A stretch of DNA of 64,000 bases from Mesorhizobium sp. RMAD-H1 (GTDB lineage: Bacteria; Pseudomonadota; Alphaproteobacteria; Rhizobiales; Rhizobiaceae), in contig NZ_JACHWN010000004.1 in the NCBI RefSeq assembly GCF_014191375.1, positions 310,001-374,000 of the forward strand, written 5' to 3'. Below are positions 7,170-64,000 of this stretch, one piece after another. Under the pieces are notes generated by a model. It saw only the letters and a program-made list of their open reading frames with translations, did not search any database and was not told the DNA's origin. Positions within the stretch are counted from its first letter, which is position 1; each line of letters opens with the position of its first letter. A program made the translations under genes and the position numbers.

Positions 7170-8207
7170 TCAGGCGCCCTTGCGCCAGCGCCGTCCCTCG
7201 GTCGGCACGCCGAAGCGCGTCGGCGTGCGGGCATAGGCCGAAAGGCCGCTGAGCGCGGCCAGCGGATGGGTGATCACATAGACCGGAATGGTCTTCATGA
7301 TGTCCTCATGCGGCGCCTTGTCCTCGAAGGCCTCGCGGAAGGAGCCGTCCTTCAGCGCCGGGATGATGCGCTGCACGATGCCGCCGGCGAGATAGATCCC
7401 GCCTTGGGCCATGAAGGTGAGGGCGAAATCGCCCGCAAGCCGCCCGAGATAGGTGACGAAGAGCTCCAGCGTCTCCTTCGCCTCCCTGGACGAGCCGTCC
7501 AACGCGGCGCCGGTGATGTCCGCCGGCGTCATCAGGACAGGCTCGACGCCGTTCGCCTTGCAGACGGCGCGGTAGATGTTCTGCAGGCCCCGCCCGCACA
7601 GGAGCTGCTCGGCCGAGATGCGCCCCTTGATGCGTTCCAGATGCGGAAAGATCTCGAAATCGCGCTCCGTCCGCGGACCGAGATCGACATGGCCGCCTTC
7701 GCCGGGCACCGGCACCCAGGTCTGGCGGGTGCGGATCAGCCCCGCCACGCCGAGCCCCGTGCCGGGGCCGAGCACGACGCGGCTGCCGTTCGGCTCGCTG
7801 GTGCCCTCGCCGATCTTTTCCAGATATTCGCTTTCGAGCGAGGCGACGGCCAGCGCCTGCGCCTCGAAATCGTTGAGGACGGTGATGTCCTCCAGCCCCA
7901 GCGTCTCCATCATCTGCTTAGGTCTAACCACCCAGGGACAGTTGGTCAGGTCGATCTCGTCGCCATCCACGGGCCCGGCGATCGCCAGCACCGCCGAGCG
8001 CGGCTGGATCGAGGTATGGTCGAGGACGGCGCTCTGGATCGCATCGTCGATCGTCGCATAGTCCGCTGTCTGCAGGATCGGGAACTGCTTCGGCTCGGCA
8101 TAGGAATCGACGAGGATGGCGAAGCGCGCATTGGTGCCGCCGATATCGCCGACGAGAACCGGGAAATGCAGGAGGCTTTCGGTATCGATGCTGGAGATCA
8201 TTGTCAT
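7170..8207 (-). CDS. glk: Glucokinase
   Basis: Phosphorylates glucose to glucose 6-phosphate with ATP in the cytoplasm. At 345 residues it is the Glk-type rather than a short ROK kinase. Visible motifs: [11 protein letters not shown] (phosphate loop), VLNDFEAQA (catalytic Asp), [10 protein letters not shown] (ATP site) and PGEGGHVD. Two possible ATG starts lie six bases apart (8207 and 8201); the first is used here. mgsA lies 48 bases upstream on the same strand, so the pair likely forms an operon controlling glycolytic input and overflow. The 3' end sits next to a family A repeat. Confidence 0.94.
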
Positions 8208-8255
8208 TTCCCGTTCTGCTCCGGAAGACGGATGCCGGACGTTCCCGGATTTTTC

Positions 8256-8642
8256 CTAGTTTCCATTGGCCAGCTTCTCCACCAGCAATTCCGCCGTAGC
8301 ACGGTTGAGTGCCATCGGTATGTCATAGACGGTGCCGAGTCGCGTCAGCGCCTTGACGTCCACATCATGCGGCATCGGCGACAGCGGATCGATGAAGAAG
8401 ATCATCGCCTGAACCTCGCCCTCGGCGATCATCGCGCCGATCTGCTGGTCGCCGCCGAGCGGCCCGCTCTTGACCCGCTGCACGACTAGCGAGGGGCAGG
8501 CCTCCTGCACGAGACCACCGGTGGTGCCGGTCGAAACGATCTCGAAACGCGAAAGCCAGCGCTCATGGGCGCGGGCGAAGGCGACCATGTCATCCTTCTT
8601 CTGGTCATGCGCGATCAGGGCTAGGCGTAACGACTTCGGCAC
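8256..8642 (-). CDS. mgsA: Methylglyoxal synthase
   Basis: Converts dihydroxyacetone phosphate to methylglyoxal and phosphate, a bypass of lower glycolysis. The 128-residue protein has the family landmarks [11 protein letters not shown] (residues 9-19), the phosphate-binding [18 protein letters not shown] with the catalytic Asp, and [18 protein letters not shown]. The start is a GTG at 8642 with only a weak ribosome site. It sits just upstream of glk. Confidence 0.94.
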
Positions 8643-8752
8643 GAGAAATCCATATCGGCAACAGTGCTAAATCGATTGAAGCCTATAGCGAAACCGGCCC
8701 CGCCTGAAAAGGGCCGATCGCCATTTACCTCTTACCGGGCGGATCGGCGCTG

Positions 8753-9832
8753 TCAGTTCCGAGGCCGCGGAACCGGCAGCGGAATGCTTGCCGGGGGTGT
8801 CGGCGCGGCGAAAGCAGCCGCCGGCACCGCCGGAGCGGCAGGGATGGCCTCCTGAACGCCGTTCGGGGCCGTGGCCGCCGCCGTGGCGTTGCGGCCGAGA
8901 CCAAACGTCACATCCGCGATCGAAGCGGGGGCCGGCTCGTTCAATATGCGCGCGCAGGCAGGCGGCAGGTCTGAGAGCATCATCGGCTTTTTGGGTTTCG
9001 GCGGCTTGGTCGGCTTCACCGGTTTGGCCGGCTTCCACGGCTCGTCGGTGAACCACCAGGCGAGCGACTTGCCGCAGCCATCATCATTCCTGTTGATCGG
9101 CTCCTGCGGCTTGCAGCCGGGCGAGCCGGGCTGGCAGGATATGCGGACATGGAAATGATAATGATGCCCCCAATAGGGGCGGACCTTGGCCATCCAGCCA
9201 CGGTCGCCGGTGACGGTGTCGCAAAGCTTCTTCTTGATGCCGGGGTGGACGAAGATACGCTCCACTTCCGGATAATTCGCCGCCCGCTTCAGGAGAGCCG
9301 CATGGGCCGGCGTCCAGATGTCGGGATCGACATAGAGCGAATCCTTTCTGAGCATCGAGACGGCACTGGTATTTTCACGCTCTTCGGCGGTGAGGCGGCG
9401 GTTCGGCATCGGCGTGAGCCAGATATCGGCGTCGAGGCCGATCTGGTGCGAGGCGTGGCCCGTCAGCATCGGGCCGCCGCGCGGCTGCGAGATGTCGCCG
9501 ACGAGCAGGCCGGTCCAGCCGTCCTGTGCGGCCTCGCGTGACAACCTTTCGAGGAGCGCGATCATGCGGGGATGGCCCCAGCGCCGGTTGCGCGACAGGC
9601 GCATCACCTGCCAGTTCGGCCCGTCCACGGGAATGGCGACGCCGCCGGCAAGGCAGCCTTTGGAGTAGAAGCCCACCGATTCCGGCTTCGCCACGGCCGG
9701 CAGCTTCTGGCCGCCGAAAGCTTGCTTCGCGGGCTGCTCGGCCAGCGCATCGCTCGCGCTCATCATTTCCAGCGCGGTTGCTGCGCAGAGAAGGGCGGCA
9801 AGCCCGATGCGGGTGAGGCGTTTTGCAGACAT
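8753..9832 (-). CDS. mepA: Penicillin-insensitive murein endopeptidase
   Basis: Periplasmic zinc endopeptidase that cuts D-Ala-mDAP cross-links in peptidoglycan. The ATG at 9832 follows GGGGGAAA and opens a signal peptide (lysine/arginine start, hydrophobic core, cut near ALAEQ). The LAS-family metal motifs are present: TGHASHQIGLDADIWL (His and Asp) and WGHHYHFHVRISC (His-x-His). The mature protein continues with a proline- and alanine-rich tail with a KPxKP repeat (KPVKPTKPPKPKKP), longer than E. coli MepA and possibly a wall-binding linker. Upstream open frame to 9952 lacks a ribosome site. Confidence 0.93.
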   Translation of the reverse strand: MSAKRLTRIGLAALLCAATALEMMSASDALAEQPAKQAFGGQKLPAVAKPESVGFYSKGCLAGGVAIPVDGPNWQVMRLSRNRRWGHPRMIALLERLSREAAQDGWTGLLVGDISQPRGGPMLTGHASHQIGLDADIWLTPMPNRRLTAEERENTSAVSMLRKDSLYVDPDIWTPAHAALLKRAANYPEVERIFVHPGIKKKLCDTVTGDRGWMAKVRPYWGHHYHFHVRISCQPGSPGCKPQEPINRNDDGCGKSLAWWFTDEPWKPAKPVKPTKPPKPKKPMMLSDLPPACARILNEPAPASIADVTFGLGRNATAAATAPNGVQEAIPAAPAVPAAAFAAPTPPASIPLPVPRPRN

Positions 9833-57828: not shown

Positions 57829-58575
57829 TCACTCCTCCACCGCCTTGCCGCTGCGCGTCTCCAGCCGATAGCGGGTGCCGGGATAGACGAGGCGGGCGAA
57901 GGAAACCACCTGCCTGGAGGACCATGTGCGCCGGCGGATCATCAGGCATGGCTCGTTGCGCGGGATGACCAGGAGCTTGCATTCCCAAGGCTCCGGCATG
58001 GCGGCCTCGACGATATGCTCGGACCCGCCGAGCGGCGCCTCGCGCGTGAGATAGGCATTGGGCGTGATGGTGGTGAAATCCTGTTCGAGATAAGAAGGTG
58101 CCGCTGCCGGATTGACGTAGCGGTCCTCGATCTGCACCGGAACATCGTTCTCGCTATGGACGATCAGCGAATGGAAGACCTTGGCGCCGATCGGCATGTT
58201 CAGTGCATCGGCGACGGAAGGGGAGGCGTCTTCCTCCTTGAGCAGAACCACCGAGGCAAGGTGCGTATGCCCCCTTTCCGCGATCTCGTCGGCGATGTTG
58301 CGCACCTCGAAAAGCGCCGAAGTGCCCTTGCGCTCGGCGACGAACGAGCCGACTCCCTGGATGCGGACGAGCTCGCCCTCGCTTGCCAGTTCGCGCAGCG
58401 CGCGGTTGGCGGTCATCTTGCTGACGCCCAGCTCCGCGACGAGTTCGTTTTCGGAAGGGACGCGATGCTTCGGAGGCCATTCGCCGCTGTGAATGCGCTC
58501 GAGGATCATCTGCTTCACGCCGGCATAGAGCGGTGCGCCATCCCCGGTCTTCTCGCTACCCCTCTCGTTCGGCAT
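57829..58575 (-). CDS. hutC: GntR-family transcriptional regulator, HutC-like
   Basis: A 248-residue regulator with an N-terminal winged helix (LYAGVKQMILERIHSGEWPP, ELGVSKMTANRALRELASEG) and a C-terminal UTRA ligand domain (LIVHSENDVPVQIEDRYV, ITPNAYLTREAPLGGSEHIV). This is the histidine-utilisation repressor layout, where urocanate releases DNA. The ATG at 58575 follows AGGAGGGATC. It is divergent from the ABC transporter cluster, with an inverted repeat between. Because the linked lyase is atypical, the effector may not be urocanate. Confidence 0.88.
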   Translation of the reverse strand: MPNERGSEKTGDGAPLYAGVKQMILERIHSGEWPPKHRVPSENELVAELGVSKMTANRALRELASEGELVRIQGVGSFVAERKGTSALFEVRNIADEIAERGHTHLASVVLLKEEDASPSVADALNMPIGAKVFHSLIVHSENDVPVQIEDRYVNPAAAPSYLEQDFTTITPNAYLTREAPLGGSEHIVEAAMPEPWECKLLVIPRNEPCLMIRRRTWSSRQVVSFARLVYPGTRYRLETRSGKAVEE

Positions 58576-58698
58576 GGATGATCCCTCCTGTTATGGCGAT
58601 CGGCGCCTGGAAAATTGCGTCGCGCCGCCGCTCCTTTGGTTCCCTCGTCGCCCGTTTTTTGGGCAGAAGCAGAATCTGCTTCCGTCCGATAGTTTGCT

Positions 58699-58739
58699 CT
58701 TGCATACCATAATAATTGACATATGGTACCCTATACAAG
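58699..58739. promoter_or_regulatory. Inverted repeat, probable operator of the HutC-like regulator
   Basis: CTTGCATAC on the left and CTATACAAG on the right are outward complements (CTTGxATA...TATxCAAG) spaced about 23 bases apart, with TACCAT...ATGGTA and TTGACA (58716-58721) inside. HutC and related GntR repressors bind CTTGTATxxACAAG-type palindromes, so these fit half-sites for such a repressor between the two divergent starts. Confidence 0.55.
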
Positions 58740-58838
58740 CTGAAGAGAATGGCCAGGCTTTACTTGGTCATTGTCGTCGCCAAGCCGGCGCAGACCGGCG
58801 CATCAGAACGTTTCCGAACCACCAAGAGGAGAATATCG

Positions 58839-59681
58839 ATGAAAGCCTACAAGATGTTGCTGGCCGGCGCCATTGCGCTGGCAGCGGGTGCATGGTCTCC
58901 GGCCCAGGCCAAGGAATGGAAGACCGTGACGATCACCCTGGAAGGGGCTTACGCCCCGTGGAACATGACCAATCCGGACGGCACGCTCGGCGGTTTCGAG
59001 CCGGAGCTGGCGAAATATCTCTGTGACCACATGAAGGTGGAATGCAAGCTGGTGGCCTCCGATTGGGACGGCATGATTGCGGCCCTCAACGCCGGCAAGT
59101 ACGACGTCATCATGGATGCGCTGTCGATCACCGAGGAGCGCAAGAAGGTCATCGATTTCTCCATTCCCTACGCCCATACCCATGCGGCTTTCGCCGCCTC
59201 GAAGGATGGCTCATACGCCAATGCCCCCGGCACGGGGACGGTGGTCAAGATGGAGCCGGACCTGAGCGGCGGCAAGGATGCGGTGGAGGCCATGCGCACC
59301 GCCTTCAAGGGCGCCACCATCGGTATCCAGGCGGCGACCGTCTACGCCAAGTTCATCTATGACAATTTCGGCGATATCGCCACGATCCGCGAATACAAGA
59401 CCGGCGCCGAGCGCGATCTCGATCTGGAAACCGGACGCATCGATCTTGCCTTCGACGATGCGGTCTATCTGAACACCACTTTCGAGAAGGCCAATGGCGC
59501 GCTGGGCTTCACCGGGCCCGAAATCGGCGGCACCATCTTCGGCATCGGTGAGGGACTGGGCGTGCGCAAGTCCGATCCCGAGCTCAAGGCGATGCTCGAC
59601 GACGCCATCAAGGCCGCGCTTGCCGAAGGGGTCGTCAAGGAGCTGTCGATGAAGTGGTTCAAGACGGATGTGACGCCTTAA
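58839..59681 (+). CDS. ABC transporter substrate-binding protein, polar amino acid/opine type
   Basis: A 280-residue exported binding protein with signal peptide MKAYKMLLAGAIALAAGAWS (cut near AQAKE). The family signature is TLEGAYAPWNMTNPDGTLGG (position near residue 33), which binds the amino-acid backbone, followed by MDALSITEERKKVIDFSIPY. It is closest in style to octopine/nopaline, arginine and histidine binding proteins. Family members bind cationic or methylated amino acids. The ATG at 58839 follows AAGAGGAG. It opens the cluster but is separated from its permease by a repeat. Confidence 0.9.
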   Translation: MKAYKMLLAGAIALAAGAWSPAQAKEWKTVTITLEGAYAPWNMTNPDGTLGGFEPELAKYLCDHMKVECKLVASDWDGMIAALNAGKYDVIMDALSITEERKKVIDFSIPYAHTHAAFAASKDGSYANAPGTGTVVKMEPDLSGGKDAVEAMRTAFKGATIGIQAATVYAKFIYDNFGDIATIREYKTGAERDLDLETGRIDLAFDDAVYLNTTFEKANGALGFTGPEIGGTIFGIGEGLGVRKSDPELKAMLDDAIKAALAEGVVKELSMKWFKTDVTP

Positions 59682-60024: not shown

Positions 60025-60747
60025 ATGTGGCTAGTGGAGACACTCGGTTTCGGGCAGACCGGCTGGGGCGGGCTTCTGCTGATAGGCGCCCTGATGACGT
60101 TGTGCGTCACGCTCACCGCCCTTCTGCTCGGCGCCATACTGGGTGCTATCGTCGCGGCGGCCAAGCTGTCGCCGAACCGCGCTGTCAGAACCGCGGGGGG
60201 GTTCTACACCACCATCTTCCGCGGCGTGCCGGAGCTGCTCATCATCTATCTCGTCTATTTCGGCGGCTCCAGCGCCGTCACCGCGATCGGCGTCTATTTC
60301 GGAGTCGAAGGGTTTCTGGGCATGCCCTCCTTCATCGCCGGTGCCCTGGCCGTCGGCCTCATCTGCGGCGCTTATCAGGCGGAGGTCTATCGCGGCGCCT
60401 TTCTGGCGATCCCGAAGGGAGAGCTGGAGGCCGCCCAGGCGATCGGCATGCACCGTTTCCTGCGTTTCCGTCGCATCATCATGCCGCAAGTCCTGCGCCT
60501 CGCCATTCCGGGCATCGGCAATGTCTGGCAGCTGAGCCTGAAGGATTCGGCGCTCGTCTCCGTCACCGGCCTCGCCGATCTCATGCGCACAAGCCAGGTC
60601 GCCGCCGGTTCCACCCGGCAATATTTCCTGTTCTTCATTGTCGGCGGCTGCCTCTATCTCATCCTGACCAGCATGTCCGACCGCCTGTTCGGCTTTGCCG
60701 AGCGGCGCGCCAGCCGCAGCATGCCGGCCGGCATCGGCCAGATATGA
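60025..60747 (+). CDS. Polar amino acid ABC transporter permease 1
   Basis: A 240-residue permease of the HisMQ family with about five helices. The EAA loop reads [20 protein letters not shown] and the N-terminal part has the [16 protein letters not shown] pattern typical of histidine/glutamine/opine transporters. ATG at 60025. Its stop overlaps a possible start of the next permease. Works with the binding protein upstream and the ATPase downstream. Confidence 0.92.
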
Positions 60748-60758
60748 AGGAGGGCGCG

Positions 60759-61481
60759 ATGGATTTCCCCTTCCTTTTCCAGACCATGAAAACCCTGCTC
60801 GCCGCCCTGCCGGTGACGCTTGGTCTCTTTTCCCTCTCGGTGTTCTTCGGCGGTCTGCTCGCCATCCTGATCGTCTGGATGCGGGTCGGCGGCAATCCCG
60901 TCCTCAGCCGGTTCGCGCGCGGCTATATCTTCGTCTTCCGCGGCTCGCCGCTGCTCATCCAGATGTTTCTCGTCTTCTACGGCCTCGGCCAGTTCGGCAT
61001 CATCCGCCACTCTTTCGTCTGGCCGGCGCTGCGCGAGCCCTTCGTCTGCGCCGTCCTGTCGCTGGCGCTCTGCACGGCAGGCTATACGGCGGAGATATTC
61101 CGCTTCGGCCTGCGCGCGGTCCCGCCGCGCGAGATCGAGGCCGCGCGCGCCATCGGCATGTCGGACTTCCTGCTGGTGCGCCGCATCATCGCCCCGATCG
61201 CCTTCCGCCACGCGCTTCCCGCCTATTCGACCGAGATCGTGATGATGGTCAAATCCACCGCGCTCGCAAGCCTCGTCACCGTCTGGGAGGTGACCGGGGT
61301 TGCGCAGCGGCTGATCTCGCAGACCTATCGCACGATGGAGGTGTTCCTCTGCGCCGCGATCATCTATCTTGTGCTCAATTTCCTGATCCTGCAGGCGATG
61401 GCGCTGCTCGAGCATTATCTTTCGCCGCATCGGCGTGCCGCCGCGCCTCTCGTCCCCGGCAGCCTTCCGGTATCCCGATGA
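60759..61481 (+). CDS. Polar amino acid ABC transporter permease 2
   Basis: A 240-residue second permease of the same family ([20 protein letters not shown], then [20 protein letters not shown]), with EAA loop [20 protein letters not shown]. The ATG at 60759 is preceded by AAGGAGGG; another ATG at 60744, overlapping the permease 1 stop, has none. It overlaps or abuts the ATPase gene. The pair likely forms the heterodimer channel. Confidence 0.92.
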
Positions 61482-61510: not shown

Positions 61511-62281
61511 ATGGCTGCGGCCACCCGGCTATCCGTCCGCAACATCCACAAGAGCTTCGGCGGCCATGAGGTGCTGCGCGGCATTTCGCTCGAGGCGCAT
61601 GATGGCGACGTCATCTCGCTGCTCGGCGCCAGCGGTTCGGGCAAATCCACCTTCCTGCGCTGCATCAATCTTCTCGAGATCGCCGATCAGGGCGAGATCA
61701 TCGTCGACGGCGAGCGCATAGAGATGATGGTGAAGAACGGCCGCAACGTGCCGGCCAGCCGCAAGCAGGTGGACCGCATCCGGGCCGAACTCGGCATGGT
61801 TTTCCAGTCCTTCAACCTGTGGTCACACATGACCATCCTCGACAATGTCATCGAGGGCCCGGTGCATGTGCTCAAAAGGCCGCGCGCGGAGTGCATCGCC
61901 GAGGCGGAGGCGCTTCTCGAAAAGGTGGGGATCGCCGAAAAGCGCCACGCCTATCCCGCCCATCTCTCGGGCGGCCAGCAGCAGCGCGCCGCTATCGCCC
62001 GGGCGCTGGCGATGAAGCCGAAGGTCATGCTTTTCGACGAGCCCACCTCGGCGCTCGATCCCGAGCTCGTCGGCGAGGTCCTGCGCGTCATGCGCAGCCT
62101 CGCGGAGGAGGGCATGACCATGCTGGTCGTCACCCACGAGATGAGTTTCGCCCGCAATGTCTCCAACCGCGTCATCTTTATGCGCTCCGGGGAGATCGAC
62201 AGCGACGGCCCGCCGGAAGAGCTCTTCGGCAAGGGCGGCTCGCCTGCCTTCCGCCAGTTCATCGGCACGTTCGGGAAGTGA
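61511..62281 (+). CDS. Polar amino acid ABC transporter ATP-binding protein
   Basis: A 256-residue ATPase of the HisP type: [13 protein letters not shown] (Walker A), [15 protein letters not shown] (signature), [14 protein letters not shown] (Walker B) and VTHEMSFAR (switch His). The ATG at 61511 follows GGAGGGG at ideal spacing; one at 61478 overlapping permease 2 is the alternative. Its stop ends two bases before the lyase start, so transport and lyase are in one operon. Confidence 0.93.
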
Positions 62282-62283
62282 TC

Positions 62284-63783
62284 ATGCGCAGGGTCACGCT
62301 GGAAAGAACCCTTGATTGGCGGGCGGTCGCCGCCATTGCCGGAGGCGCCGGGCTGGAACTCGGAGCCGGTGCATGGGAGAGGATCGACCGCGCGGCGCAG
62401 ATCGTCGCCGCGCTGGTCGAACGCGGCATTCGCGCCTATGGTGTCAATACCGGCGTCGGCGCGCTGGCCGATACGGTGGTGGATCGCGCGTCGCAGCGCC
62501 GCCTGTCGCGCAACATCCTGATGAGCCATGCCTGCGGCGTCGGCCCGCTTTTGCCGGCACGCGAGGTACGCGCCATCATCGCCGCCCAGATCAACAATTT
62601 CGCCCATGGCCATTCCGGCGTCCGGCCCGAGATCGTCCGGGCGATTCTGGCGCTTCTCGATCAGGATTGCATTCCCGATGTGCCCTCGAAGGGCTCCGCC
62701 GGCTATCTCACCCATATGGCGCATATCGCGCTGGTGCTGATCGGCGAGGGCACTGCGCATCTGGAGGGCCGGGAGGTGAGCGGCGCCGAGGCGCTGGCCG
62801 CAATCGGCGTCGAGCCTCTCGTGCTGGAGGCGAAGGAAGGCCTGAGCCTCGTCAACGGCACCTCCTGCTCCACCGGCCTTGCCTGCATCGCGCTTTCCCG
62901 CGCCGAGCGCCTGCTCGAATGGGCGGATGCCATCGCCGCGCTGACGCTCGAGGCGCTTGGGGCCCAGATGCCTGCCTTCGGGGAAGACGTGCTGGCGCTC
63001 CGGCCTTCGAAAGGCATCGAGACCGTCGGGCGCGCTTTGCGGAAACGGCTTGAAGGAAGCGGGTTCATCGCGGCAAACGCCGGCGCGCGCACCCAGGACG
63101 CCCTGAGCCTGCGCGCTATCCCGCATGCTCATGGCGCGGCGCGCGACGGCTTTGATTTCGCCGCCGAAACCGTCAATCGCGAGCTCGCCTCCGTCACCGA
63201 CAATCCGGCCGTCGCCGGCACACCGGAGGCGCCGCTGGTCTGGTCCGAGGCCCATGCCGTCGCGCCGGCGCTGGCGCAGGCGCTCGACATGCTGGCGGTC
63301 GCCATTGCACAGATCTCCGCCATGAGCGAGCGCCGCATCGACCGTCTGGTCAATCCGCTGGTGAGCCGGCTCCCGGCCTTCCTCGCCGATGATCCGGGTG
63401 CGGGTTCCGGCTTCATGATCGCGCAATATACGGCGGCTGCCCTCAGCAACGAGAACCGCCGCCTTGCGGCGCCGGCCAGCCTCGACGGCGGCGTCACCTC
63501 TGCCCTGCAGGAGGATTTCCTGGCGCATCCGACGGCGGCTGTGGTGAAGCTTCTCGCTGTGCTGGACAATGCCGAGCAGATCTTCGCCATCGAGCTTCTG
63601 GCGGCGGCGCAGGCGCTGGATCTCCATCCGGGCCAAGCCTCGCGCGCCAGGGGAACGGATGTGGTTTACCGCGCCTTGCGCGACATCCTGCCCCGCTATA
63701 CCGATGACCGGCCGCTGGCTAAGGATATGGCGGCGGCGCAAGGGCTCCTCTGGGAGGCAAATCCGCCAGCCGTGCCTGTCTGA
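62284..63783 (+). CDS. Histidine/aromatic ammonia-lyase homologue lacking the MIO tripeptide
   Basis: A 499-residue lyase of the HAL/PAL family. Conserved sites: Tyr52 in YGVNTGVG, His82 in SHACGVG, Asn191 in LVNGTS, Gln271 and Arg277 in TQDALSLR, Glu391 in SNENRR. The MIO-forming Ala-Ser-Gly is missing: residues 136-147 read [12 protein letters not shown], where HutH has KGSVGASGDLAPLAHM. The Tyr of QDPYSLR is Leu274. This fits the MIO-less clade to which ergothionase belongs, so a trimethylamine-releasing or other elimination is more likely than histidine deamination. Older annotation would call it HutH. Confidence 0.88.
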
Positions 63784-63826: not shown

Positions 63827-64000
63827 ATGTCCAATCAATTTGATGTCGCCGTCATCGGCCTTGGCGCGATGGGCAGCGCCACGGTCGCGCATCTGGCCGC
63901 GCGTGGCGTCAGGGTCATCGGCCTGGAGGCCGCCTTCCCCGCCCATGCGCAGGGCTCCTCCCATGGCGATTCCAGGTTGATCCGGCTCGGCTATTTCGAG
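63827..64000 (+). CDS. SolA/sarcosine-oxidase-like FAD amine oxidase, 3' end outside window
   Basis: N-terminal 58 residues of a flavoprotein: [20 protein letters not shown] is the FAD-binding Rossmann loop and [16 protein letters not shown] matches monomeric sarcosine oxidase and N-methyltryptophan oxidase (SolA), where HGDSRIIR holds FAD-contacting His and Arg. ATG at 63827 follows GGGGGG. These enzymes oxidise N-methyl amino acids, a fit with a cluster handling methylated compounds. It begins 44 bases after the lyase stop. Confidence 0.85.

Follow-up and report, generated by a model that had tools for sequence, protein, structure and literature searches.

Closest described systems

Histidine ammonia-lyase (HutH) depends on the cofactor MIO. 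In ergothionase, represented by the Treponema denticola structures (PDB 6s7j/6s7q), Lys383 is a catalytic residue. Work by Maurer in 2019 and by Yan in 2022, which is said to deal with the ergothioneine sulfonate pathway and to be cited for Agrobacterium radiobacter, and a thesis reportedly written on the ergothionase of A. radiobacter may also bear on the lyase family considered here. The second lyase gene of the hut operon in Pseudomonas aeruginosa, PA5093, may be a member of this MIO-less family.

Excerpts of the literature report an ergothionase in A. radiobacter (PMC7653990, PMC13405746) and present hercynine both as a precursor of ergothioneine and as one of its metabolites (PMC7653990). 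In an excerpt on Pseudomonas strain J380, HutH_1 and HutH_2 of the operon are both taken to be histidine ammonia-lyases (PMC8069873), and in an excerpt on strain PAO1 growth on histidine suffers from a single hutH deletion and the name hutG is given to PA5093 (PMC12772324). Our search of the open-access literature found no paper on a hercynine-to-urocanate lyase and none on a thiourocanate hydratase.

Here, we compare these systems with a lyase gene of Mesorhizobium sp. RMAD-H1, located in a 64-kb window, by which we mean the whole stretch of DNA that was analysed.

The lyase operon and its putative regulator

The features of the locus are as follows.

57829..58575, minus strand: HutC-type GntR regulator, divergent from the operon (TIGR02018, 304.6 bits, cut-off 220)
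58721..58734, no strand assigned: palindromic putative operator ATATGGTACCCTAT, found once in the window and also conserved ahead of the operon at orthologous loci
58839..59681, plus strand: ABC substrate-binding protein of the polar amino acid / opine type (213 bits, short of the 256.35 cut-off)
60025..60747, plus strand: HisQ-like permease of the ABC transporter (190.7 bits, short of the 319 cut-off)
60759..61481, plus strand: ABC permease, HisM/OccM-like, judged from its position and from how the orthologue in R. etli is annotated
61511..62281 (alternative start 61478), plus strand: ABC transporter ATPase
62284..63783, plus strand: HAL-fold lyase of the MIO-less GYL family, a predicted histidine-betaine trimethylamine-lyase
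62692..62724, plus strand: shortened loop of the lyase at the MIO site of HutH, residues 137-147, with Tyr141 and His144 invariant in 37 core rows
63827..64000, continuing beyond the window, plus strand: FAD oxidase (N-methyl-L-tryptophan oxidase/MSOX family), 5' part of the gene; 405.7 bits vs. a cut-off of 257

The operon thus runs from the substrate-binding protein through the two permeases and the ATPase to the lyase and the FAD oxidase, with the lyase ATG beginning two bases after the stop codon of the ATPase gene and the HutC paralogue on the divergent side. By type, the importer belongs with amino-acid/opine transporters and not with betaine transporters, and its counterpart in R. etli is annotated as an octopine transporter. 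A "sarcosine dehydrogenase" is also annotated near the R. etli locus.

The palindrome ATAKGGTACCMTAT between the regulator and the operon occurs once in the window, and among 52 divergent pairs it has at least 13 of 14 matches in 48 (14 matches in 42) and 8 to 11 matches in four. At a threshold of at least 12 matches it is absent from the 20-kb stretch L085, the genome's own hut cluster, which instead carries TGTATATACA (L085:8904), presumably the canonical hut operator. A pattern search at 58500-58900, upstream of the window operon, found no copy of TGTATATACA. We infer that the HutC paralogue may regulate the operon by binding to the palindrome at 58721-58734.

The complete canonical hut cluster of the genome, which contains an ASG-type HutH, is located on another contig and would supply the rest of the pathway. 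No match to EgtD was found in the genome of the window, and endogenous synthesis of hercynine was set aside on this evidence, although the control is weak in that 0 of 14 control genomes reached the cut-off. Likewise, no full-length FMO-type match (trimethylamine monooxygenase) was found in the genome, which contains two partial matches to PF00743.

A HAL-like protein without the MIO motif

As proposed in the preliminary description, the reading frame at 62284-63783 on the plus strand is intact, encoding a protein of 499 amino acids. It matches the aromatic amino acid lyase superfamily (PF00221) with 488.7 bits as compared to a gathering score of 27.3, and misses the cut-offs of the curated HutH models TIGR01225 (469.9 vs. 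539.15) and NF006871 (474.7 vs. 524). The structure model of the protein matches HAL structures, with pLDDT values below 50 at residues 138-140 and 400-412 and the lowest values located exactly at the loop.

At the site where HutH carries GSVGASGDLAPLAHM, the lyase has GSAGYLTHM. In the alignment, its loop is three residues short, with S143-G144-D145 of P. putida HutH unmatched and Ala142 replaced by Tyr141, although the exact position of the gap is the aligner's choice. Because Ala-Ser-Gly is missing, the lyase is considered to lack MIO. The absence of this tripeptide with its three-residue gap, as well as the replacement of the Tyr in QDPYSLR (HutH Tyr280) by Leu274, had been recognized in the preliminary description and are borne out by our alignment of 37 core family rows, 22 HutH rows, 6s7j and four ergothionase-like rows. 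Its list of retained active-site residues is correct for Tyr52, His82, Asn191, Gln271 and Arg277 but not for Glu391, since residue 391 is an Asn and the equivalent of HutH Glu414 is Glu410.

Both changes, the loss of the MIO tripeptide and the replacement of Tyr280 by Leu, are present in 37/37 core family rows. Invariant in HutH and the family alike are the equivalents of Tyr53, His83, Asn195, Gln277, Arg283, Met382 and Glu414 (P. putida numbers), which we take to have roles at the active site; His82, Met378, Glu410 and Arg277 of the lyase presumably correspond to the residues with which HutH binds the imidazole and the carboxylate. These shared residues suggest, therefore, that the family still has a pocket suited to a carboxylate and an unmodified imidazole but no longer has the electrophile by which HutH activates the amine. 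Tyr141, His144 (HutH Pro148), Tyr382 (HutH Val386) and Leu274 are new in the family and invariant across the 37 core rows, and the position of HutH Phe329 is occupied by Ala or Pro. Relative to P. putida HutH (1b8f/1gkm), the window lyase differs by the absence of Ala-Ser-Gly and by the replacements of Tyr280 by Leu, Phe329 by Ala and Val386 by Tyr.

Placement beside ergothionase and HutH

The lyase is 29% identical to the T. denticola ergothionase, the loop of which is one residue shorter than in HutH whereas that of the lyase is three residues shorter. It shares with the ergothionase-like proteins a HAL fold without the MIO tripeptide and with Tyr280 replaced, by Leu in both. However, Lys383, Ser194 and Gly379 in 6s7j are Tyr382, Asn191 and Met378 in the lyase. 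The ergothionase-like rows, with their loop one residue short, are without the HutH-type Met and Asn, and at the position of HutH Val386 they have a Lys in 6s7j and in three of the four others (4/5 rows), as compared to Tyr382 in 37/37 rows of the family.

In the best tree, inferred from 68 rows after removal of the loop columns, the family is the sister of the ergothionase-like rows with a support of 97/86, and the 25 MIO rows are located on the opposite side of this branch. The five ergothionase-like rows, including 6s7j, form one group (100/100) with the family outside. The best tree thereby argues against a clustering of the lyase with MIO-containing HutH, for which a tree had been proposed as a check, but a constraint tree that joins the GYL family to HutH without the ergothionases was not rejected (p-AU 0.236). 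A constraint tree in which the ergothionases group with HutH, and the family stays outside, likewise could not be rejected at the 0.05 level (p-AU 0.0664).

Judged by its sequence, the lyase belongs to a distinct and widespread MIO-less family that is neither HutH by its cofactor motif nor quite ergothionase. The earlier suggestion of an ergothionase-type or related MIO-less lyase is thus upheld as far as the lack of MIO and the relationship to ergothionase are concerned. A strict ergothionase identity is not supported by the grouping outside the 6s7j group, by the residues, in particular the Lys, or by the canonical hydratases described below.

Conservation and spread of the family

The motifs GS[AV]GYL and QD[AP]LSLR are present in 80/80 orthologues, which are the best 80 of 528 relatives and thus no independent sample. 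The hosts of these 80 are mainly Rhizobiaceae and Phyllobacteriaceae, with the addition of Thalassospira, Kaistia, Labrys and Jiella. The dN/dS ratio is about 0.13 in comparison with two close orthologues (0.050/0.392 and 0.081/0.638), and selection on the lyase is strongly purifying. The presence of the traits in all of the best 80 of 528 relatives, along with the purifying selection, rules out chance and a sequencing or assembly artefact, including the error hiding an Ala-Ser-Gly that the preliminary description had considered.

A profile built from 25 family members and run against 398 Pseudomonadota genomes gave matches of at least 600 bits in 23 genomes, with the next score at 466 after a gap, and the family member in 23/23 of these genomes has the loop GS[AV]GY[LI] without Ala-Ser-Gly. 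In the bacterial family to which the window belongs, 31 of 199 genomes have a match at E <= 1e-165. Wherever the public annotation was looked at, members of the lyase family are called histidine ammonia-lyase.

A remote member with 38% identity and the loop GSLGYLNH is located on a plasmid in Priestia megaterium, where a 17 kb stretch contains hutU, hutI and a hutG-like gene and the sole lyase is the MIO-less one. This protein (L086; strain JX285, plasmid 3, 7884-9422) is annotated as hutH and passes the curated HutH cut-off (591.7 vs. 539.15). Since it does so without the MIO motif, a gene should be named hutH only after inspection of its loop, whatever its family score.

Neighbourhoods in other genomes

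The neighbourhoods were studied at 80 contig loci (the best 80 of 528 relatives), some of which are ended by contig ends, and in a phylum sample of 22 loci that leaves out the window's own genome, with a flank of about 10 kb. Genes for hutU, hutG, hutI, hutF or hutH were identified in the flank at 18/22 phylum-sample loci and 30/80 of the best 80 of 528, and any hut gene including hutC at 20/22 and 66/80, respectively. An intact ASG-type HutH is encoded in the same stretch at 15/22 and 25/80 loci, an amino-acid-type importer near the lyase at 8/22 and 54/80 loci and the FAD oxidase at 1/22 and 36/80 loci, the second count in each pair again referring to the best 80 of 528. The flank is without a hut gene at 14 of these best 80 of 528 loci, mostly from Mesorhizobium.

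OpuC/ProU-type permeases, the counts of which rest on a loose BLAST criterion, are located near the lyase at 9/80 loci among the best 80 of 528, namely eight Agrobacterium-type loci and L049. By the same criterion, an OpuC-type permease is present at 11/22 phylum-sample loci, one of which is L138, where the permease could instead be part of an adjacent system of the sulfonate type. At Agrobacterium L042, the OpuC/ProU-type parts fall short of the curated cut-offs (ProV-type 293 vs. 326.6, ProW 81.8 vs. 439, OsmF 87.8 vs. 400). Judging from HutXWV in S. meliloti, ProU-type transporters in hut clusters can presumably carry histidine itself.

Five sampled genomes (L123-L127) pair a family member with an ASG-type HutH, an arrangement reminiscent of the two "hutH" genes in Pseudomonas hut operons: a ProU-type transporter is located on one side and hutI-hutG on the other, the lyase gene immediately precedes the ASG-type hutH, and the HutH in these genomes groups with P. 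putida HutH.

Partner hydratases

Urocanate, thiourocanate and S-methyl-thiourocanate hydratase each have a model of their own in NCBIfam, and 11 of 40 HutU-like rows were scanned with these. The nine scanned hydratases from stretches with a family member are all canonical urocanases, with scores of 945.2-1034.5 bits for the hutU model, 662.7-715 for the thiourocanate model (cut-off 930) and values below the cut-off of 880 for the S-methyl model. The only urocanase-family gene in the window genome is also canonical (988.4 for the hutU model, 691.8 for the thiourocanate model), and no thiourocanate hydratase was identified in this genome. In contrast, the hydratase adjoining the ergothionase-like lyase at L090 is a thiourocanate hydratase (1045.7 bits), a difference in partner enzymes that represents one locus among four: no HutU-like gene flanks the lyase at L088 or L089, and the hydratase shared at L138 is canonical.

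Because the genome's urocanase and the nine scanned partner hydratases are canonical, urocanate is the most likely product of the family, and hercynine is a likelier substrate than ergothioneine. The quaternary or methylated histidine put forward in the preliminary description is probably the right kind of substrate.

Other MIO-less and ergothionase-like loci

Several related lyases were observed in the sampled genomes. Two MIO-less lyases are encoded at L138 (G308:C26:49000-68999), one of the window's type and one ergothionase-like (GSLGAADLAQLAQM), the latter with a taurine/sulfonate-type transporter in the cluster. On plasmid pRL1 of R. leguminosarum Ta1k (L089, 5884-7389), an ergothionase-like lyase annotated as histidine ammonia-lyase has hutC, ABC transporter genes of the taurine/sulfonate type and a putative sulfate exporter as neighbours, and this is possibly an ergothioneine sulfonate locus. 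On a plasmid of Paracoccus denitrificans (L090, 4623-6284 and 8001-9437), the thiourocanate hydratase gene directly precedes the ergothionase-like lyase gene.

The ergothionase-like lyase on pSymA of S. meliloti 2011 (L088, about 7845-9479) has a GSVGQADMTLLSH loop, ergothionase as the closest PDB match and, as judged by eye, an apparent signal sequence. Finally, at L140 (G062:C1:3162000-3181999), a HAL relative encoded at about 9.5-11 kb on the minus strand lacks Ala-Ser-Gly (GSVGYLGPEGHLAL), retains the Tyr280 equivalent and adjoins a HisJQMP-type importer; it may represent a third MIO-less type.

Proposed function

We lean toward the hypothesis that the lyase is a MIO-independent trimethylamine-lyase that converts histidine betaine (hercynine) to urocanate, which is fed to the Hut enzymes. 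A 1,2-elimination would remove trimethylamine from hercynine, and the urocanate would then be degraded by the ordinary HutU, HutI and HutF/HutG proteins. MIO would be dispensable because trimethylammonium is already a good leaving group. The shorter loop with the invariant Tyr141 and His144 may fill the space of MIO, and these residues could together with the invariant Tyr382 cage the trimethylammonium group. The ABC importer genes precede the lyase gene, and the FAD oxidase encoded downstream may demethylate N-methyl-histidine.

It is the combination of a MIO-free elimination to urocanate, betaine-type importers in some clusters and the frequent presence of HutH that points to hercynine, with trimethylamine leaving. 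Not all observations fit: the window has an importer of the amino-acid/opine type, the oxidase has no obvious place in the scheme and is present at 1/22 phylum-sample loci, 14/80 loci (best 80 of 528) are without a hut gene, the genome has no full-length FMO-type match, and the OpuC/ProU-type parts at Agrobacterium L042 are below the curated cut-offs.

An unlikely alternative is that the enzyme is an ergothionase or an ergothioneine-sulfonate lyase, with thiourocanate or sulfo-urocanate as the product. The sister relationship in the best tree, the shared replacement of Tyr280 by Leu and the OpuC-type transporter adjoining the family in Agrobacterium loci would all be consistent with such an activity, as would the ergothionase credited to A. 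radiobacter in the excerpts cited above (PMC7653990, PMC13405746). However, the position of Lys383 in 6s7j is Tyr382 in 37/37 rows, Asn191 and Met378 are HutH-like and the single urocanase of the genome is canonical. Furthermore, separate ergothionase-like lyases are present in S. meliloti (L088), R. leguminosarum (L089), Paracoccus (L090) and at L138.

We also considered a lyase for another Nalpha-substituted histidine, such as mono- or dimethyl-histidine or an opine like histopine, which would also yield urocanate. Such a substrate is suggested by the amino-acid/opine-type importer in the window and by the downstream gene of the N-methyl-amino-acid oxidase family, but seems improbable given that OpuC/ProU-type transporters replace this importer in other clusters and that, on chemical reasoning, a secondary amine fits a MIO-free elimination less well.

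A non-catalytic HutH paralogue, acting as a regulator, a scaffold or a subunit in a hetero-tetramer with HutH, might be expected to lose the cofactor and to be encoded in the same stretch as an ASG-type hutH, as at 15/22 phylum-sample loci and 25/80 of the best 80 of 528. Yet the substrate-binding and acid/base residues are invariant under strong purifying selection, some stretches are without HutH (Priestia L086; L130), and the lyase has a transporter and a regulator of its own, which makes this interpretation very unlikely.

A histidine ammonia-lyase working without MIO is the least credible reading, in spite of the retained HutH pocket and the Priestia member that passes the curated HutH model, as it would be redundant beside HutH, and deletion of hutH alone impairs growth of P. 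aeruginosa on histidine (PMC12772324). With the MIO motif absent and the curated cut-offs missed, we agree with the preliminary description that histidine ammonia-lyase is probably the wrong name for a protein that, by these sequence features, is unlikely to have this activity.

Implications for histidine catabolism

Returning to the hercynine trimethylamine-lyase, we see roughly even chances for the broader hypothesis that a widespread and so far unrecognised branch of histidine catabolism, with dedicated importers, a regulator and an operator, is concealed behind additional "hutH" genes of rhizobia, Pseudomonas-like bacteria, other Pseudomonadota and Priestia, and that it represents a new bacterial source of trimethylamine. 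If true, a precise function would be provided for a gene present in 23/398 sampled Pseudomonadota genomes and in 31/199 genomes of the window's bacterial family, and hercynine would join the substrates that feed the hut pathway. It would also show how the HAL fold can act on an unmodified imidazole even when the cofactor is missing, and add one more enzyme to those that form trimethylamine.
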